A stretch of 64,000 nt of DNA, from contig NZ_JYFC01000006.1 of NCBI RefSeq assembly GCF_000938265.1, positions 186,001 to 250,000 on the forward strand, written 5' to 3'. This DNA is from Agreia bicolorata (lineage in GTDB: Bacteria; Actinomycetota; Actinomycetes; Actinomycetales; Microbacteriaceae). Position 1 is the first letter of the stretch; every line of letters begins with the position of its first letter. The notes below the pieces were generated by a model. The model was not told where the DNA came from. It was given only the letters and a program-made list of their open reading frames with translations, and made no database searches. Positions 18,174 to 45,708 of the stretch are shown here, in pieces. A program made the position numbers and the translations under genes.

Positions 18174-19040
18174 CTACGCGGAGCGGCGGCGCGTTACAAC
18201 GAGCGAGGCGGCGCCGACCAGAAGCAGCATCCCAGAGACCGTTCCGAGAACGAGACCGTCGGAGCTTCCCGTAGCGGCGAGCGTCTTGGCGGGTGCGGAT
18301 GCAGCCTCGGCCGGGGCAGCAGTGTCGGCGACGATGGTCGTGGTGCACACGTCTTCGTAGACGACGAACTGTGCCGCACCATCGAGCAGTATGGTCTGGA
18401 ACTTGCTGACGATCAGGTCGATACCGGACACGTACGTCGTGACGTTTTCTTCGAAGTCCTCTGGCAGCACCGGGCTGGTGTAAGGCCCGCCGACGGGCAG
18501 ATCTGCATCGAGAGTGGCCTGCGCTTGGTTGAGGAAGTCTGTACGAGCAGACTCGAGCGCGTTGGAAGCGGCCTGGAACGGCTGCAGGTCGGGGTCGGAC
18601 AAGAGCGAGTTGAAGAGGGCCGGGAGATTCTGCTGCCAGCCAGTCGTATTGTCCGGGTCGACGGTGTTGAGCTGCTCAGCTAGCTCTTGGAGTGATGCGA
18701 ACACATTAGTTTCGGCCTGAACCGCATTGCGAGCGTCCTCCGCTTCGGTCACCCCGGTCTTATAGGCAGCGAGGTCGTCGGAGGTGAAGAGGGCAGGAAA
18801 ATCGAGTGTGAGGTCTGACGTGGTCGTGATGAACTGTTTCTCGGCGACTCCGAGGGGCTCGTAAAAGTTCTCGCTCTGCGAGAAAGCAAGCCATGGCTGC
18901 GTCTGAGCGGTGGCCTGCTTGGTGCAGGTGACGACCTCGGCCGCGTGGGCAGCGGAGGGCAGCGCGAGAAGTGCGAGTGCGCTCGCCGCCGCGACGGTGA
19001 TGACTGCGGCACGCGCGGTGCCGATAGACAGAACTGACAT
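18174..19040 (-). CDS. Secreted protein with C-terminal LAATG sortase signal
   Basis: This 288-aa surface protein has an N-terminal signal peptide (cleavage near AAHAAE), a helical mature region and a complete sorting signal at the C-terminus. LAATG is at 254-258, followed by a hydrophobic span and the basic tail TRRRSA. LAxTG is the motif of class E sortases in high-GC Gram-positives, so covalent attachment to the cell wall is inferred. The mature domain has no recognisable fold. A G5 run 12 bases before the ATG may serve as ribosome-binding site. No sortase gene is in the window. Confidence 0.82.
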   Translation of the reverse strand: MSVLSIGTARAAVITVAAASALALLALPSAAHAAEVVTCTKQATAQTQPWLAFSQSENFYEPLGVAEKQFITTTSDLTLDFPALFTSDDLAAYKTGVTEAEDARNAVQAETNVFASLQELAEQLNTVDPDNTTGWQQNLPALFNSLLSDPDLQPFQAASNALESARTDFLNQAQATLDADLPVGGPYTSPVLPEDFEENVTTYVSGIDLIVSKFQTILLDGAAQFVVYEDVCTTTIVADTAAPAEAASAPAKTLAATGSSDGLVLGTVSGMLLLVGAASLVVTRRRSA

Positions 19041-19285
19041 AAGTGATCGACTCCCCCGTTGCCACTGCAGGCGCAGCGGGCCTCATAACACTACAGAGTG
19101 TGGTGAATCGGCAGCAAGTGCACAGGCCAAATTCAGCTTGAGGTGTGCAGCGGGTGGAGGGCTGGGCCGATTCTGTCGACTTCAGGCGTGTCAATGGTGA
19201 GTACTGCCCATGCCTCGAACTCGGTCTGTATACCGCTGACTGCTAGGGTTTTCACACCACGCACCCCCTAAAAGGAGTACATACA

Positions 19286-27458: not shown

Positions 27459-28184
27459 CTAGCCGGCCTGGACGCCCGCCGAGAACGTAATCGTCGAGAG
27501 GGTGACTCCGTCGCAGCCGTCGTTCTGCGGGATGTTCACAACCGCGCTGACACTGGTGAGGCCGACGCTCTCGTCTGGGAATTTCGCGTTCATTGCATCG
27601 AGGATGGGCTGGAACTTTATGTAGACGAACGCGGGCACATTGGTGCTGACCAGCACGGACGGGTCGATACCGCCCTGCGAGAGGGGAACCGTGTAACTCA
27701 CCTGGTCGGCAACCGACTCACCGCCTCGGAACAACGACACGTCTGCCGTGACCGTCACCTGGGCGGGCTGCGTGGTGGACGCATCGATGAGGGCTTGAAC
27801 GGCTGCCGCGTCGTTCTGCGGGAACTCGTGGTAGAAGCCGAGGAAGCCGTCGTCGGTGCGGAAGTCCCAGAAGCCGAGTGTCTCGCTCACGCTCGGCAGG
27901 GCCGTGGTCGGTGTACACGAAGGCGTCGGTGCCGGCGTCGGAGTCCATACCACCGGCGGGGGTGTCGAAGTCGAGCACGGGACGCCAGACGCGGCCTGCG
28001 CGCTCGGGGCCGCCGACCCGAGAAGTGTCAGGCCCAGAAGCAGCGGGATGACGAGGAAGGCCGACCAGCCCGCGCGCTTCTTCGCCGCGAATACGGCGAC
28101 GATGCCCGCGGCGAAAAGAACGGTGGCAATAATGAGGAACGGCAGCAGTGTGTCGGTTCCTGTGGTGGCCAGGCAGTCGGTCAT
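27459..28184 (-). CDS. Membrane protein with N-terminal LATTG-TM-KKR module and extracellular domain
   Basis: This 241-aa protein has an unusual layout. Residues 1-9 read MTDCLATTG, followed by a hydrophobic span and KKR, which together look like a C-terminal sortase signal placed at the N-terminus. A second hydrophobic span ends in SAQAASG, like a signal-peptide cleavage site. A Pro/Thr linker and a beta-rich extracellular domain of about 150 residues follow. By the positive-inside rule the N-terminus would be outside. The ATG is preceded by a G5 run at 10 bases. The domain is not recognised. Confidence 0.72.
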   Translation of the reverse strand: MTDCLATTGTDTLLPFLIIATVLFAAGIVAVFAAKKRAGWSAFLVIPLLLGLTLLGSAAPSAQAASGVPCSTSTPPPVVWTPTPAPTPSCTPTTALPSVSETLGFWDFRTDDGFLGFYHEFPQNDAAAVQALIDASTTQPAQVTVTADVSLFRGGESVADQVSYTVPLSQGGIDPSVLVSTNVPAFVYIKFQPILDAMNAKFPDESVGLTSVSAVVNIPQNDGCDGVTLSTITFSAGVQAG

Positions 28185-28453
28185 AAGTGTGAATCCCCCG
28201 TGATGGATGCGCCGCTCGGCGCGATCGGTCGGCCCGCCACATCACAGAGGCGAGAGATCGTAGTGATCCGATCATAGGGGGTAGTGCCGACGGATGAAAA
28301 GCAGATTGTTCCCCTCGTTGGCTCGGTGAGCCGCGCGGTCTTACTTGGGGGCTGATCGCGATCGCCCGCGGTGTGCAAGGGCGATCCGATCGGACCGCGA
28401 TAGTAGGGTGCCGATCGAGACGACCCGGAAGTGTGGGTGTCGAAGGAGGCGCC

Positions 28454-40275: not shown

Positions 40276-41451
40276 CTAGGCGGCCTTGCGTCGCGCCACA
40301 GCCATGAGCACGCCACCCGAGAGAAGCAGCACGGCGAGGGCGAGCCCTCCGGCGAGAAGCCCGCCATCCAGGCCCGTGTTCGCCAGCACTGGCTTCGGCG
40401 TCACGGCAGTGGGGCCGGATGCGACGGGCGGGGTCGGCAGCGTAGGCGCGACAACCGCAGGGAACGCGGCGTCGAGAGCAGCGCTCACGGAGTCGGTGAG
40501 GAACGTGGCGCCCAGGGTGTTCGGGTGCAGCGTTCCCGGGTCGAGGCTCTCGCCCGCCAGGCGAACGCCGTTCACGTAGGCGGACCCGTCGGTGACGCAC
40601 GCGTTGTGGCCGAAGCTGGAGGCGAACGACGGAACGTAGGTGAAACCGGCAGTTGCCGCGGCGTTCTGGATGGCGGCATCCAGCTTGACCTCGACCGAGT
40701 GCAGGTACGGGGCGTCGATCGTCGTGAACGGGAAGGTGTTGGCCGCGCTGCCGATTGCGGTGAAGCATCCCTCGGCGGGGACTGTCGCAGGGAAGATGCT
40801 GGGGTATCCGACGACGAAGACCTTGGCGTTCGGTGCGGCTGCGGCGACAGCTGCGTAGGTCTCGGCCAGCGACGTCGAGACGGGGCCGGCGATCTTTGCG
40901 GCGAGGAGGTCGCCCTGGGCCGTGTAGGCAGTGGCGCAGTTGGGCAGCGTGTTCTCGAACAGCAGCGGACCGTCGGCGCTTGCGGCGAGGCACGACTGCA
41001 CGATGTCGGTGAAGCCCAGATCGTTTCCGCCGATGGTCAGCGTCACGACGTCGGTGTCGGCGCTGAGCGCGGCGATCTGCGGAGCGATGTTGCCGTACTG
41101 GCTATTCACCGTGACATCACTGGTTTCGGCGCCGGAGCACGACACGTCGGTGAGGTTCAGGCCATAGGCCGCCGCGACTTGGTGGGGAAAGTTCACCGAA
41201 CTCTGGCCGCACTCAGGGGTCGGCAGCCCGGTGAGCGGCGTGAGCCCCAGCCCGGCCGAATACGAGTCACCGAGTGCGACGTAGTCGAGGCCTGCAGTCA
41301 CGGCGGGAACGCCCGGAGCTGGAGCCGCGGTGGCGGTCGACGATGCAAGCAGCGAGCCCGTGATGAGCGCGCCGGCGACAACGGCGGTGCCGATGAAACG
41401 TGCGGCGGTGTAGCGGGCGTGAGCGCGCGTGGAAGCAGTTCGTGACGTCAT
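40276..41451 (-). CDS. Secreted SGNH/GDSL hydrolase with LANTG sortase signal
   Basis: This 391-aa surface lipase/esterase has a signal peptide ending near TATAAPA and a canonical SGNH domain. Block I is ALGDSYSAG with Ser63, the oxyanion Asn is in TIGGNDLGF and the His is in LHPN. At the C-terminus LANTG (356-360), a hydrophobic span and ARRKAA make a class E-type sorting signal. Six cysteines suggest disulfides as in streptomycete lipases. A G6 run 8 bases before the ATG is the only ribosome-binding candidate. It is divergent from the SipW cluster. Confidence 0.92.
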   Translation of the reverse strand: MTSRTASTRAHARYTAARFIGTAVVAGALITGSLLASSTATAAPAPGVPAVTAGLDYVALGDSYSAGLGLTPLTGLPTPECGQSSVNFPHQVAAAYGLNLTDVSCSGAETSDVTVNSQYGNIAPQIAALSADTDVVTLTIGGNDLGFTDIVQSCLAASADGPLLFENTLPNCATAYTAQGDLLAAKIAGPVSTSLAETYAAVAAAAPNAKVFVVGYPSIFPATVPAEGCFTAIGSAANTFPFTTIDAPYLHSVEVKLDAAIQNAAATAGFTYVPSFASSFGHNACVTDGSAYVNGVRLAGESLDPGTLHPNTLGATFLTDSVSAALDAAFPAVVAPTLPTPPVASGPTAVTPKPVLANTGLDGGLLAGGLALAVLLLSGGVLMAVARRKAA

Positions 41452-41669
41452 AGTTGAATCCCCCCTGCGGTCATACTACGGGTTGTCTTGGCAGCCCCTA
41501 CGCAATAAATGTGCGGGCACTACCGGCCCCCACTACTGGCACTACTCGACTCTCTGCGCGCGACTACGTGAAGGGCCGTTCTGAGCCCCATCGTGAATTC
41601 CGCTCATGTCATCGTTCAACCCTCAGAGGCCACAACAGGGGCGGCTTCATCAAGTTGGGGAGTTCAGTA

Positions 41670-42422
41670 ATGTCACAGACATCAGAGTTCGACGCACCGG
41701 AGACTCCAGTCGGACCGTCGCTCAAAAAGCGTTCCACGAAGCAGAAGGCCTTCGCGGTTCTCGCTGCAGGCCTCGTGCTCGGAGTCGGCGCCACGGTCAC
41801 GCTGGCCGTGTGGAACGACTCCGAATGGGTCGTCGGTGGAACAGCCGGCGCCGGCGGAGACCCGGGCACCCCGGGCGTCGGAACCAGCACATTCGAGGTG
41901 CAGCAGAACACCTCGTCGCCGTTCGTAGCCGACGAGTGGACTGACGAAGAGACCAACCCCGGCGGATCGCTGGTCTTCACCGCGGGCGCGCTCACGCTCA
42001 CCCCGGGCGACTCCATCTACGCGCCTGTGTCGCTCAGCACGACTGACGGATCGGTCGCCGCACCGAGTGTGCGTCTGAGCGGCGCCGTCGACGCGACGAA
42101 CATTCCCACCGAAGACGCCGATGGCCTGCTCGCAGACGCCCTGCAGCTTCGCGTGGTCGTTGCTACCGGTGCACGCGACGCCGCTCCCGCCACCTGCAGC
42201 GACGCATCGTTCGGCCTCGGCGCGACGTTCGTGGTCGGCAGTGCGACCACCACGGCGGCACTCGACACGGCCGGCGCCACGGTCGACGCTCTGGCAGCAG
42301 ACTCGGGCAACCAGCTCAACTACTGCTTCGAGATCTCGCTGCCCGGTGACGCTCCCGACACTCTGCAGGGTCGAACAGTCGCTCCCGCCTGGCAGTTCGT
42401 GTCGTCCTCCGAGCTGATCTAG
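41670..42422 (+). CDS. Alternate-signal exported protein (SipW-type substrate)
   Basis: This 250-aa protein begins with a long basic N-region (SLKKRSTKQK), one hydrophobic segment and TLAVWNDSEWV. This is the pattern of the actinobacterial alternate-signal (RER_14450-like) exported proteins related to TasA and camelysin. The W-x-D-x-E-W element is at residues 48-53. The mature part is beta-rich and Thr/Ala/Asp-rich with two cysteines, fitting an extracellular fibre or matrix subunit. The gene sits 43 bases before a SipW-like peptidase. GGGG lies 9 bases before the ATG. Confidence 0.8.
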   Translation: MSQTSEFDAPETPVGPSLKKRSTKQKAFAVLAAGLVLGVGATVTLAVWNDSEWVVGGTAGAGGDPGTPGVGTSTFEVQQNTSSPFVADEWTDEETNPGGSLVFTAGALTLTPGDSIYAPVSLSTTDGSVAAPSVRLSGAVDATNIPTEDADGLLADALQLRVVVATGARDAAPATCSDASFGLGATFVVGSATTTAALDTAGATVDALAADSGNQLNYCFEISLPGDAPDTLQGRTVAPAWQFVSSSELI

Positions 42423-42465
42423 CAACCGGCACGATCCTCGAGGCTGACGAGCGGAAGGCGAATCG

Positions 42466-43086
42466 ATGAGCCGAGTCGCCGAGATCCGCGGGACCCACCG
42501 TGAACATCCCCATGCACACGGTGGGTCTCGTCACCCGAGACGGCTTGCGTCTGTCGCCACTCGAATCAGGGATGCGGCGCTCGCGCTCGCCGGTCTCGCC
42601 GGTCTTGCCGCCATCGCCTGGGGCATCGCAACAGTGTTCTTCGGATTCTCGCTCGTGACCTTCGCCACCGGATCCATGGCCCCGACGATTCCGACGGGCT
42701 CACTGGCTCTGGTGCGTGAGGTCCCGGCATCCGAGCTCGAGGTCGGGCAGGTCGTCACCCTTCAACGAGGAGGGGAACGCCTGCCGATCACCCACCGCAT
42801 CATCGCAATCGAGCCCGACCCGAATGTACCGACCGGCCGCATCGTGTCGATGCAGGGCGATGCAAACACGATTCCCGACCTCTTTCCGTATCACGTGAAG
42901 ACGGGAAAGGTCGTTCTCGGCTCCATCGCCGGGGGGCAGGCCATCAGCGACGCGATCGGAAGCCCGATCACCCTGGTCGCCGTGACTCTCGGAGCCGGCG
43001 CCCTCGTCTTATGGGCCTTCTGGCCCCGCATTCCGACATCCAGCACCACCGAACCACGAAGAGGTGAGAGACGCTATGCGCGTTGA
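42466..43086 (+). CDS. Signal peptidase I, SipW (ER) type
   Basis: This 206-aa membrane protease has a TM span before the catalytic serine in TGSMAPTIPTGS (Ser70). The general base is His110 in LPITHRIIAIE, where ordinary bacterial signal peptidases have Lys. That Ser-His layout is the SipW/ER type, which processes TasA-like proteins. A second TM span is at the C-terminus. GGAAGG precedes the ATG by about 8 bases. The next gene overlaps its end, so the cluster is one operon. Confidence 0.9.
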   Translation: MSRVAEIRGTHREHPHAHGGSRHPRRLASVATRIRDAALALAGLAGLAAIAWGIATVFFGFSLVTFATGSMAPTIPTGSLALVREVPASELEVGQVVTLQRGGERLPITHRIIAIEPDPNVPTGRIVSMQGDANTIPDLFPYHVKTGKVVLGSIAGGQAISDAIGSPITLVAVTLGAGALVLWAFWPRIPTSSTTEPRRGERRYAR

Positions 43087-43885
43087 ACCCGCATCCGCGA
43101 GACGTCGAGCAGCAACAGCGCTCGCCATGGTCTTCGCCGTACTGCTTATGGTGGCGGGCATCGCGCTCGTCTCGGCCCGAGCATCCGCGGCCCTAGTGCT
43201 GCCGGGGGATCCCAACCCGCAGCCGGGTGCCCCCGGGTACCTGAGTCTCGAGACCTCGCCAGACCCGTTGCAGTTCATCGATATGAGCCCCGGTGACGTG
43301 GGTTACGGGCAGATCACGATGAGCCTCGACAACGCCGCGACGGCCCGCATCGCCCTCGAGATGTACGCCGGGGGAGAGCTGCTGGCTCACCCCAACGGCG
43401 TGGTCATCTCGATCGCGTCGTGCGACGTCGCATGGGCGGGAATTCCCGCAGAGCCGGTCACCTTCGACCCCCCAGATCCCGGATGCGGCGACAATCCGCA
43501 GCCGATCACCTCCGTCGGGCCGGGTGCGGAATCAGACGGAACGCCGCTGTTCGACCTCGGAACACTTGACGCGAACAGCCCGCGTTTCATCCTCGTCGAG
43601 GTGCGCATGCCCGACGTCTCGGCCAGTCGCGATGAGAGCCTCATGGGGCTCTCGGGAGACTTCGCCTTCCACGTTCTCGCCGAGGGCGACGACGCGGTTC
43701 CGACCACCCCGCCGACGACACCCGGCACGCAGACACCCGGCACGACCGGTGCCGGCGGCAAGGGCGGCCTCGCCAACACCGGACTCGATGTGCTCGCGGT
43801 TGTGCTCATCGGTTCTGGAGCCATCGCGCTCGGAATGATCGTGCGCTATCGCCGAACCCTCAGCCCCCGAAGGAGCGAGTCATGA
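43076..43885 (+). CDS. Secreted protein with LANTG sortase signal
   Basis: This 269-aa protein has a standard signal peptide (hydrophobic core, ASAAL cleavage region), a beta-rich domain with two cysteines, a Thr/Pro/Gly-rich stalk and a C-terminal LANTG (232-236), hydrophobic span and basic tail. It is probably linked to the wall by a class E sortase. It overlaps sipW by 11 bases and the next gene by 4, so the three are translationally coupled. The domain is not recognised; a minor subunit or anchor of the surface structure is inferred. Confidence 0.8.
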   Translation: MRVEPASARRRAATALAMVFAVLLMVAGIALVSARASAALVLPGDPNPQPGAPGYLSLETSPDPLQFIDMSPGDVGYGQITMSLDNAATARIALEMYAGGELLAHPNGVVISIASCDVAWAGIPAEPVTFDPPDPGCGDNPQPITSVGPGAESDGTPLFDLGTLDANSPRFILVEVRMPDVSASRDESLMGLSGDFAFHVLAEGDDAVPTTPPTTPGTQTPGTTGAGGKGGLANTGLDVLAVVLIGSGAIALGMIVRYRRTLSPRRSES

Positions 43886-45708
43886 CCCCGCGCAGCACAA
43901 CCCGCCGCCCCCTTTCTCGATCGGCGATGCGTCGACTGATCGGCGCGCTGGCGGGCGTGGTCGCGATCACCGTCACGGTGGGCACGTCGATTCAGGCCGC
44001 ACCGACGGATGCCTCGTGGCTCGATGCCGAGTGGGATTCGGCCGCCGTGGGAACGCTTGACTGCGGCCCGGGCGGCTCGCCGTTCACCACGCGGGCGTCG
44101 GGCAAGCTGCTGGGCGGAAGCCTGGCTGGTATCAACCTCGACGACCTCGCCGAGCTCGACGGCATCAGTGGTGTCAACGACGAATCCGGTGTGGCGATCA
44201 CGCCCCCGCCGCCGCAGTCGAACTCGCTGGGCGACAACGCCTACGCGAATCCGCTCACCGTCACGGCTCTGGACACTCTGCAGGTCAGCCTCGGCGATCT
44301 TCTTCTGCTTCCGCTGAACGCCGACCTCGGGGTCGACAACAGCTACGTGCGGGTCAACGCCGATGGAACCTCGACGGGTGCGACCGGCGCGGTGAGCAAC
44401 AGCGGAGCCATCCAGACCACGGCGAGCCAGCCCGGCCCGAACCCGCCAACCTTCGCGACGCTGCAGTTGAAGAACATCGTGCAGTCGGCGCTCGGCCAGG
44501 ATCTGAGTACGGCTATCGCGGGCCTTGCAGACGCTTCTCTCGAGGTGGGCGCCGTAGCGTCGAATGCGACGCTTGACGCCTGTGCTGCGACCTGGACGGG
44601 GTCGATTCTCTCGTCGCTGCAGCGCCAGTACGCAGTGGCCGGGGTCGACCTCGACCTGACGTCGCCCACGGTCGGGACTCTCGTCACGGGCACGACGGGA
44701 GTCATCAACGGTCTCGACGGGTCAGTCGAAGCGCTCGCGGGCAACGCCGGCGTGCTGTCGTCGTTGACGACGGGAATCTCCGGACTTGTGAACACGGTGC
44801 TGACCACGGCCGGCCTTGGTCTCGGGTCCGTCACCATCAACAATCTCGCCGTCAATATCGACCTGACCCAGGTCAATGGTCTCCTCGATGACACCATCTC
44901 CGACAACGCAGGAATCGTCAGCATCGATCTGCTGACGGGTCAGATCAGCATCGATCTCGACGGCTTGCTCGGCGCCGCCTATGGCACGTCGGGAATCAAC
45001 GGGCTTCCTGCCAACACGCAACTGCTGATCAATGACGACATCATCAACGCGCTTACAGCGGCGACGACGGAGGCTCTCGTCAATTGGGTCGACGATCTCG
45101 AGAGCGAGATTCGGGATGCCCTCGAGTCGCTCACGCTTTCGGCCCAGGTGGTGGTGAACGTGCTCCAGGGCGCCGGCCCGCCTGCCGCTTCGGTGACGTT
45201 GTCTATCCCCGAAGTCTCGCTGCAGGGGCTCATCGACGGTGATCCTGTCGTGACAACGTCGGTGAGCCTGGCAGGCGGTGCCTCGTGCACCGTATTGACC
45301 CTCGTCCTCTGCACGGCCCTCAACACGGTTGGCACTCTGCTGGCTCCGACGATCTCCGCGTCGCTGGGTGCAGCACTCGATGCCGCTCTGTTCACCTCGG
45401 CGACCAACGTTCTCGCGACGACACGAGCCGCGCTCCTCGCGCTCACCGACCCGGTGATCACCTTGGTGGCCAACGCCACGCGGGGTCTCTTCGGAGAGGA
45501 CTCCCTGCTGTCGCTGACCGCGAATGCCCAGAACAGCCCCGACCCGGCCAACGGCAACCCCGAGCCGGCCTGGTCGGTTCCGGGCCCGGATCCGGCGACG
45601 GGATCGACGGGTCAGTATGACGTGGCCGCATTGAGGCTCACCGCGGTGGGCACCACAGTGCAGCTCGATCTGGCCCGGTCGTCGGTGGGAACCAGCGCCC
45701 CGCGCTAG
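43882..45708 (+). CDS. Large secreted protein, choice-of-anchor G type
   Basis: This 608-aa exported protein has a basic N-terminus (TTRRPLSRSAMRR), one hydrophobic segment and TDASWLDAEW (W-x-D-x-E-W at 46-51) just after it, which matches the first protein of the cluster. The rest is a long Leu/Thr/Ala/Asp-rich beta-helix-like chain with regular hydrophobic periodicity and few cysteines. The overall pattern resembles choice-of-anchor G proteins. No LPxTG-type tail or C-terminal membrane span is present. It is probably the largest matrix component handled by the linked SipW peptidase. Confidence 0.75.
   Translation: MTPRSTTRRPLSRSAMRRLIGALAGVVAITVTVGTSIQAAPTDASWLDAEWDSAAVGTLDCGPGGSPFTTRASGKLLGGSLAGINLDDLAELDGISGVNDESGVAITPPPPQSNSLGDNAYANPLTVTALDTLQVSLGDLLLLPLNADLGVDNSYVRVNADGTSTGATGAVSNSGAIQTTASQPGPNPPTFATLQLKNIVQSALGQDLSTAIAGLADASLEVGAVASNATLDACAATWTGSILSSLQRQYAVAGVDLDLTSPTVGTLVTGTTGVINGLDGSVEALAGNAGVLSSLTTGISGLVNTVLTTAGLGLGSVTINNLAVNIDLTQVNGLLDDTISDNAGIVSIDLLTGQISIDLDGLLGAAYGTSGINGLPANTQLLINDDIINALTAATTEALVNWVDDLESEIRDALESLTLSAQVVVNVLQGAGPPAASVTLSIPEVSLQGLIDGDPVVTTSVSLAGGASCTVLTLVLCTALNTVGTLLAPTISASLGAALDAALFTSATNVLATTRAALLALTDPVITLVANATRGLFGEDSLLSLTANAQNSPDPANGNPEPAWSVPGPDPATGSTGQYDVAALRLTAVGTTVQLDLARSSVGTSAPR

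Follow-up and report, generated by a model that had tools for sequence, protein, structure and literature searches.

Cysteine-bearing N-terminal sortase headpieces on unrelated exported proteins of Microbacteriaceae, and a possible disulfide tether to the cell wall

The locus and its gene product

The window, that is the whole stretch of 64,000 nucleotides from Agreia bicolorata that was analysed, contains on its reverse strand an open reading frame (27459-28184) that starts with ATG and encodes 241 residues, opening with MTDCLATTGTDTLLPFLIIATVLFAAGIVAVFAAKKRAGWSAFLVIPLLLGLTLLGSAAPSAQAASGVPC. A sequence-only reading of the window had noticed LATTG at residues 5-9, a hydrophobic span, KKR, a second span and an AQA-like site, and all of these are present in this frame, where the protein runs in the order MTDC, LATTG, span 1, KKR, span 2, AQA-A..C and then a secreted-type domain (Table 1). 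That account did not mention Cys4 and Cys70, which are central to what follows. No signal peptide precedes the motif; 232 residues stand C-terminal to LATTG, and the AQA site ends 55 residues past the TG. We placed the signal peptidase I site by the AxA rule and the basic loop in the cytoplasm by the positive-inside rule, with the second span as the presumed core of a signal peptide. Of the two cysteines further along, Cys90 probably pairs with Cys224. A Pfam scan of the protein gave no match below E 0.02 and a Foldseek search against the PDB none at E <= 0.001. The predicted structure has a mean pLDDT of 65 and says nothing about Cys4 and Cys70, because they fall in its low-confidence regions (residues 1-13 and 54-76, below 50).

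The neighbouring genes encode a Polyketide_cyc2 protein and an AraC/GyrI-type regulator, and no sortase gene was seen among these neighbours. The genome encodes two headpiece proteins of the kind described below, one VKOR (132.9 bits) and, on another contig, one class E sortase (250.6 bits, cut-off 160). It also encodes one sortase-like protein that scores far below the cut-offs of the sortase classes. This protein (G000:C17:116510-116815) lies on the same contig as the window, about 70 kb before it; it has TTASG at the place of the TSCNP of the class E sortase, so that the catalytic cysteine seems lost, and carries extra C-terminal spans.

The three other window proteins said to end in LAATG or LANTG, a span and basic residues do so in their frames (Table 1). 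The LANTG-tailed protein on the reverse strand is a GDSL-like lipase/acylhydrolase (Pfam Lipase_GDSL_2), and the one on the forward strand adjoins a cluster of exported proteins (41454-45708), with a Pfam match in 0 of the 2 scanned. Several Agreia genomes (G000:C1:409066-409173; also G001, G002 and G005) further contain a 76-residue frame with a C-terminal LADTG, span and basic residues, which may be of the type that NCBIfam calls 'LAXTG motif-containing small protein'.

Table 1. Features of the headpiece gene and of the C-terminally tailed proteins in the window
Feature	Position	Strand	Basis
GGGGGA, possible ribosome binding site, 9 nt upstream of ATG	28194..28199	-	reading of the sequence, inferred
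Residues 1-4, MTDC, short N-terminal peptide, predicted outside	28173..28184	-	
Cys4, proposed tether cysteine, directly precedes LATTG	28173-28175	-	single pre-motif Cys in 65/65 headpieces
Residues 5-9, LATTG, class E sortase-type motif	28158..28172	-	class E sortase in own genome
Residues 13-34 (approx.), first hydrophobic span	28083..28148	-	helix in predicted structure, confidence low to middling
Residues 35-37, KKR, basic loop, predicted cytoplasmic	28074..28082	-	positive-inside rule
Residues 41-57 (approx.), second hydrophobic span	28014..28064	-	helix only partly modelled
Residues 62-64, AQA, predicted signal peptidase I site	27993..28001	-	AxA rule
Cys70, proposed Cys4 partner, mature-protein start, just past AQA	27975..27977	-	
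Residues 71-92, Pro/Thr/Ser-rich linker, wall-spanner-like, includes Cys90	27909..27974	-	
Residues 93-241, beta-rich mature domain, includes Cys224	27462..27908	-	
Protein with C-terminal LAATG tail	frame 18177-19082	-	hydrophobic span and basic residues after motif
Protein with C-terminal LANTG tail	about 40276-41475	-	hydrophobic span and basic residues after motif
Protein with C-terminal LANTG tail	about 42986-43885	+	hydrophobic span and basic residues after motif

A portable N-terminal headpiece

A protein search with the window protein returned matches in 4 of the 8 genomes of the genus, several of them limited to an N-terminal stretch of 104-127 residues, the rest of the protein being unrelated; such matches to the N-terminus of the window protein fell on M1 peptidases and on one protein without a Pfam match. 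A profile of the N-terminal module (A1) matched 111 of 299 family genomes, many of its rows being ordinary C-terminal tails that span positions 4-40 only. A second profile (A3), trimmed to exclude both cysteines, was run on 398 genomes of the family, 396 of the order and 396 of the phylum. At least 40 of the 398 family genomes gave a row reaching from position 5 or earlier to position 60 or later with no stop; by reading, at least 39 genomes in at least 18 of 85 genera carry a headpiece, that of the fortieth (G207) being broken at a contig end. The order scan yielded five headpiece proteins (L072, L073, L075, L082, L100) in four genomes of two other families, and among the best 30 loci listed and 4 further regions of the phylum scan no headpiece was seen outside the order.

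With duplicates (L006, L008-L010, L067, L068, L070, L251) and false positives (L050, L056, L064, L065, L066, L069, L101, L102, L247, L248) removed, we gathered 65 headpiece proteins, which are mostly from the family itself and include these five from the rest of the order. Their mature parts form 20 clusters (blastp, E <= 1e-4), among them M1 peptidases and an S33-type hydrolase, a number that is an upper estimate because L047 resembles a distant relative of the window family. Eight representatives scanned against Pfam gave Peptidase_M1 in one, Hydrolase_4 (S33) in one and no match in six. The 65 leave out two real headpieces with the cysteine pair by reading (L263 and L024), which were cut or missed by the filter, and L278, which lies at a contig end with its motif out of frame. 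Also left out is L044 (G004:C53:138455-138658), a degenerate copy with its two spans and cysteine-bearing mature part intact (five cysteines past the spans), in which the motif reads LSSTD and the sequence upstream has neither start codon nor cysteine.

These comparisons indicate, at the level of sequence, that the string of Cys, L[AP]xTG, span, basic loop, span, AxA and Cys is a portable N-terminal headpiece. Beyond the mature cysteine follows a linker which, in 37 complete proteins, contains 19% proline against 6% further on, and 59% P+T+S+A against 36%. The N-termini of two sister proteins exceed the cut-offs of curated NCBIfam sorting-signal models, LPXTG_anchor (16.8 against 15.9 bits, residues 6-39) and Microco_LAVTG (28.4 against 27 bits, residues 15-47), in a scan of eight proteins, whereas the window protein itself reaches 15.6 bits against a curated sorting-signal model with a cut-off of 27.

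The earlier proposal of a sortase-signal module with its motif outside the membrane gains support from this conservation. Free variation at LATTG did not occur, since an alignment of the window protein with L004, L012 and L047 gives LATTG, LANTG, LAATG and LAATG, in which LA-x-TG is kept and only x varies; elsewhere, the degenerate copies L044 and L278 lack the motif. The aligned orthologue L004 (G003:C1, about 35.9 kb) has no ATG, GTG or TTG near its TTDCLANTG; a G-rich stretch stands ahead of ATC ATT, so that the gene may use a rare start codon or be wrongly annotated. We rejected one candidate line of support, namely that headpiece and tail motifs co-vary within a genome, as the result was mixed: G236 has C-terminal tails of the forms LPxTG (5) and LAxTG (6) next to headpieces with LPSTG and MAVTG, and G284 has 12 LAxTG tails and one LGSTG (13 read) next to headpieces with LANTG and LPNTG.

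Such a protein might owe its N-terminus to chance or to a recent gene fusion confined to its own genome, and the phylum does contain a long natural protein in which a sorting tail is fused to a lipoprotein-like signal. We regard this as barely credible for the window gene and reject it, along with a single fusion, given that full-length profile matches stand on many unrelated proteins and that orthologues and unrelated carriers occur in the family genomes and genera counted above. Convergence, also put forward by the sequence-only reading, finds no support. Its suggestion that the tail of a lost gene was fused on is not needed to explain the window gene, whose headpiece is an established module on many unrelated domains, but may describe the remote origin of the module. 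The fusion in question, L222 (G886:C238 region), is one frame of 700 residues with a signal-peptide-like start, repeat domains, LPITG, a span and RR, which continues into a second span with a lipobox-like SAAC site and then a second secreted domain; its architecture differs from that of the headpieces and it is excluded from the 65. In this natural fusion a sorted protein is joined to a lipoprotein-like one, and the headpiece may descend from a protein of this type.

Two spans suffice to anchor a protein, and the headpiece could accordingly be an uncleaved or partly cleaved membrane anchor, in which the cysteine pair staples the outer ends of the hairpin and LAxTG is the relic of the tail that gave rise to the first span. 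All lineages in which headpieces were seen are rich in ordinary LAxTG tails, which could readily have supplied the first span, and the predicted structure offers no proof of cleavage. However, L-x-x-T-G is kept in nearly all copies read, partly by selection as the filter demanded an LxxTG-like pentapeptide, although the spans have diverged to a mean column identity of 36% (alignment A2). The substitutions, moreover, are those typical of sortase motifs (53 LAxTG, 7 LPxTG and five others, namely 3 LSNTG, 1 MAVTG and 1 LVETG), and an AxA site and a wall-spanner-like linker come after the second span. An anchor of this kind hence appears unlikely to us.

The cysteine pair

Exactly one cysteine stands ahead of the motif in 65 of 65 headpieces, at a distance of 1-4 residues in 62 and of 12-21 in three; in four of the 65 (L029, L052, L053, L279) this cysteine depends on a start further upstream than the nearest one, the chosen start being preceded by a purine-rich stretch in L052 and L053 and by none that we saw in L029. 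The first mature cysteine follows 57-97 residues past the TG, and within 80 in 63 of 65. In alignment A2 the invariance of this second cysteine is by construction, the rows having been cut there, and is no evidence. The subset found with the cysteine-free profile A3 behaves alike, with one pre-motif cysteine in 24/24, the second within 80 residues in 23/24 and an odd count in 18/18. Among complete headpiece proteins as a whole, 50 of 51 have an odd number of mature cysteines (cysteines inside spans omitted); the lone even one is L016, where an apparent internal deletion, judged against L019, would have removed one cysteine. The background frequency of cysteine in the rest of the mature parts is 0.44% (74 of 16,686), and in 85 C-terminal LxxTG tails, which cover all loci and in which a protein with two motifs is counted twice, a cysteine lies up to 5 residues upstream in none and up to 20 in three.

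An odd mature count leaves one cysteine over to pair with that of the headpiece, and the arrangement expected of a disulfide-tethered anchor, with one cysteine on each side of the hairpin and an odd count in the mature part, is the one observed. We also tried reading the mature cysteine as that of a lipobox and rejected this: the window site, GVPC, does not follow [LVI][ASTVI][GAS]C, the pattern fits in 2 of 65, and both of these loose fits (L045, L287) lie beyond the AxA site. Since the peptide has a single cysteine directly before the cut site, it might instead be planted in the wall to capture other cysteine-bearing exports through disulfide exchange, or might regulate or decoy the sortase. 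This we hold to be quite improbable, as each headpiece comes with a partner cysteine of its own and an odd mature count, which fit pairing in cis.

A matched comparison is provided by the relatives of the M1 peptidases, which were retrieved by their catalytic part and not by the headpiece. Nine of the best 80 of 566 carry a headpiece (two from Agreia, six from Herbiconiux and one from Amnibacterium flavum), and each of these has two cysteines in the whole protein, one per side of the hairpin. Of the remainder, 10 have a lipobox by regular expression (one, L140, looks wrongly called), 56 have a plain signal peptide, three are cut by contig ends and two have no clear frame. The domain is free of cysteine in 54 of the 56 with a plain signal peptide, and no cysteine was seen between signal peptide and domain in these proteins. 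Thus, the enzyme needs no cysteine, and the cysteine comes with the headpiece. By sequence, the M1 relatives take no anchor, a lipid anchor or a headpiece at the same end.

This comparison bears on the idea that the sortase cut serves to release or activate the mature protein with no tether, in which case the disulfide would be transient, later broken or exchanged, and the protein would be secreted. Most M1 relatives among the best 80 of 566 bear plain signal peptides and would be secreted, and in M26 IgA1 proteases, according to the portion of PMC9637739 available to us, N-terminal LPXTG recognition is tied to maturation 56 residues downstream. Yet a simple signal peptide is enough for secretion, the cysteine pair is kept in 65 of 65 with a Pro/Thr-rich spacer adjoining the would-be anchor, and the relatives with a lipobox at the same place point to a need for N-terminal anchoring. 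We judge release without a tether to be rather unlikely.

Proposed mechanism

We prefer the reading, to which we give a probability of roughly 0.6, that the headpiece receives one cut from signal peptidase and one from the class E sortase, that the small cysteine-bearing peptide goes to the wall and that a disulfide holds the N-terminus of the mature protein there. The gene product would then be an exported protein bearing an N-terminal sortase headpiece, and the steps might follow in this order: 1) The two spans would enter the membrane as a hairpin whose basic loop stays inside, so that the very short N-terminus and the C-terminal domain come to lie outside, as argued by the short acidic N-terminus, the basic loop and the AxA after span 2. 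Such a hairpin would bring Cys4 and Cys70 to the outer face of the membrane. 2) A Cys4-Cys70 disulfide would form outside; the VKOR of the genome belongs to the machinery of oxidative folding. Excerpts of PMC9974433 state that exported proteins of Actinobacteria undergo oxidative folding and that about 60% have an even number of cysteines. 3) Signal peptidase I would cleave after AQA. 4) The class E sortase would cleave between T and G of LATTG and move the peptide MTDCLATT to the wall precursor; sortases are described as cleaving between T and G and joining the upstream part to lipid II (PMC13251363, in the passages available). 5) The hairpin would be thrown away, and the mature protein would be fixed to the wall at its N-terminus via the Cys4-Cys70 bond. 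The Pro/Thr-rich stretch would serve as wall spacer, with the C-terminus free; a stretch rich in Pro, Thr, Ser and Ala directly after the mature cysteine lies where such a spacer is expected. As only a few residues stand upstream of the motif, sortase transfer would anchor nothing useful without the disulfide. The suggestion that LATTG belongs to a donor peptide for sortase E came nearest to this explanation; what it overlooked is the cysteine pair that would give the peptide a purpose.

Should such a tether exist, M1 peptidases and other surface enzymes would hang on a redox-sensitive bond, their covalent anchoring could be undone by reduction, and sortase action would be tied to oxidative folding. 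The module should then be transplantable to any exported domain by about 70 extra N-terminal residues, and could offer a compact N-terminal tool for surface display with a free C-terminus and reductive release. Searches for sortase substrates require a C-terminal signal, as stated in the accessible part of PMC13251363, and would therefore miss headpiece proteins.

Comparison with known systems

The window protein shares with classical sorting signals the pentapeptide, the span with basic residues and a cognate sortase in the genome; it differs in that its signal is not C-terminal on a protein with an N-terminal signal peptide. Bender and Weiser (2006) is said to be the primary paper on an N-terminal LPNTG. 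The passages available of several studies call an N-terminal LPXTG atypical in the IgA1/Zmp metalloproteases of streptococci and Gemella (PMC9637739, PMC2705793, PMC6722419, PMC2225412), and in one further excerpt that of the M26 proteases is described as sortase-linked (PMC7695701). As far as these descriptions go, the M26 proteases (ZmpA, ZmpB and ZmpC) resemble the headpiece proteins in having LPXTG near the N-terminus together with hydrophobic segments, and their mature enzyme starts about 56 residues past the motif (PMC9637739), compared with 57-97 residues from the TG to the mature cysteine in headpieces. In the window protein, too, hydrophobic segments follow an N-terminal motif, and the predicted mature part begins at a similar distance of about 56 residues. 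In contrast, the motif of the M26 proteases is described as preceded by, or lying within, a separate signal peptide and an N-terminal domain of 200 residues that contains three TM segments (PMC2225412), whereas the headpiece has no separate signal peptide, places its motif at about residue 5 and adds a conserved cysteine pair. The M26 case, by the same descriptions, involves sortase A, LPXTG and one protease family, and the headpiece class E-type LAxTG and many unrelated mature domains; G5 and M26 protease domains are absent from the window protein, which has no Pfam match, and from eight others, which have M1, S33 or none.

The sections available of PMC5148588 describe class E sortases and LAXTG in connection with signals at the C-terminus. 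Their C-terminal substrates (chaplins, CwpA/CwpB; PMC5148588, PMC13251363, each as far as available) share with the headpiece LAxTG, a span, basic residues and a class E sortase, but the signal is at the other end, and the tails examined here lack the close upstream cysteine of the headpiece (0/85). The headpiece motif also gives matches, either weak or exceeding the cut-off, to two NCBIfam models, NF058583 (LAXTG_small_WW) and NF058582 (Microco_LAVTG), although neither is described, in the model descriptions as retrieved, as N-terminal or with cysteine. Lipoproteins too are exported proteins held at the N-terminus via a cysteine, and other M1 relatives use a lipobox, but the mature cysteine of the headpiece stands outside one.

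Within the open-access literature, we found no description of a cysteine-tethered or LAXTG-type N-terminal sorting signal. We consider it slightly more likely than not that the headpiece represents a class of wall anchor not yet described, in which sortase would attach just a peptide of 4-20 residues with a cysteine and the protein would hang by an N-terminal disulfide. An N-terminal LPXTG is known, and what is new here is the cysteine pair, the missing signal peptide and the portability of the headpiece, together with, possibly, the chemistry of its anchoring.
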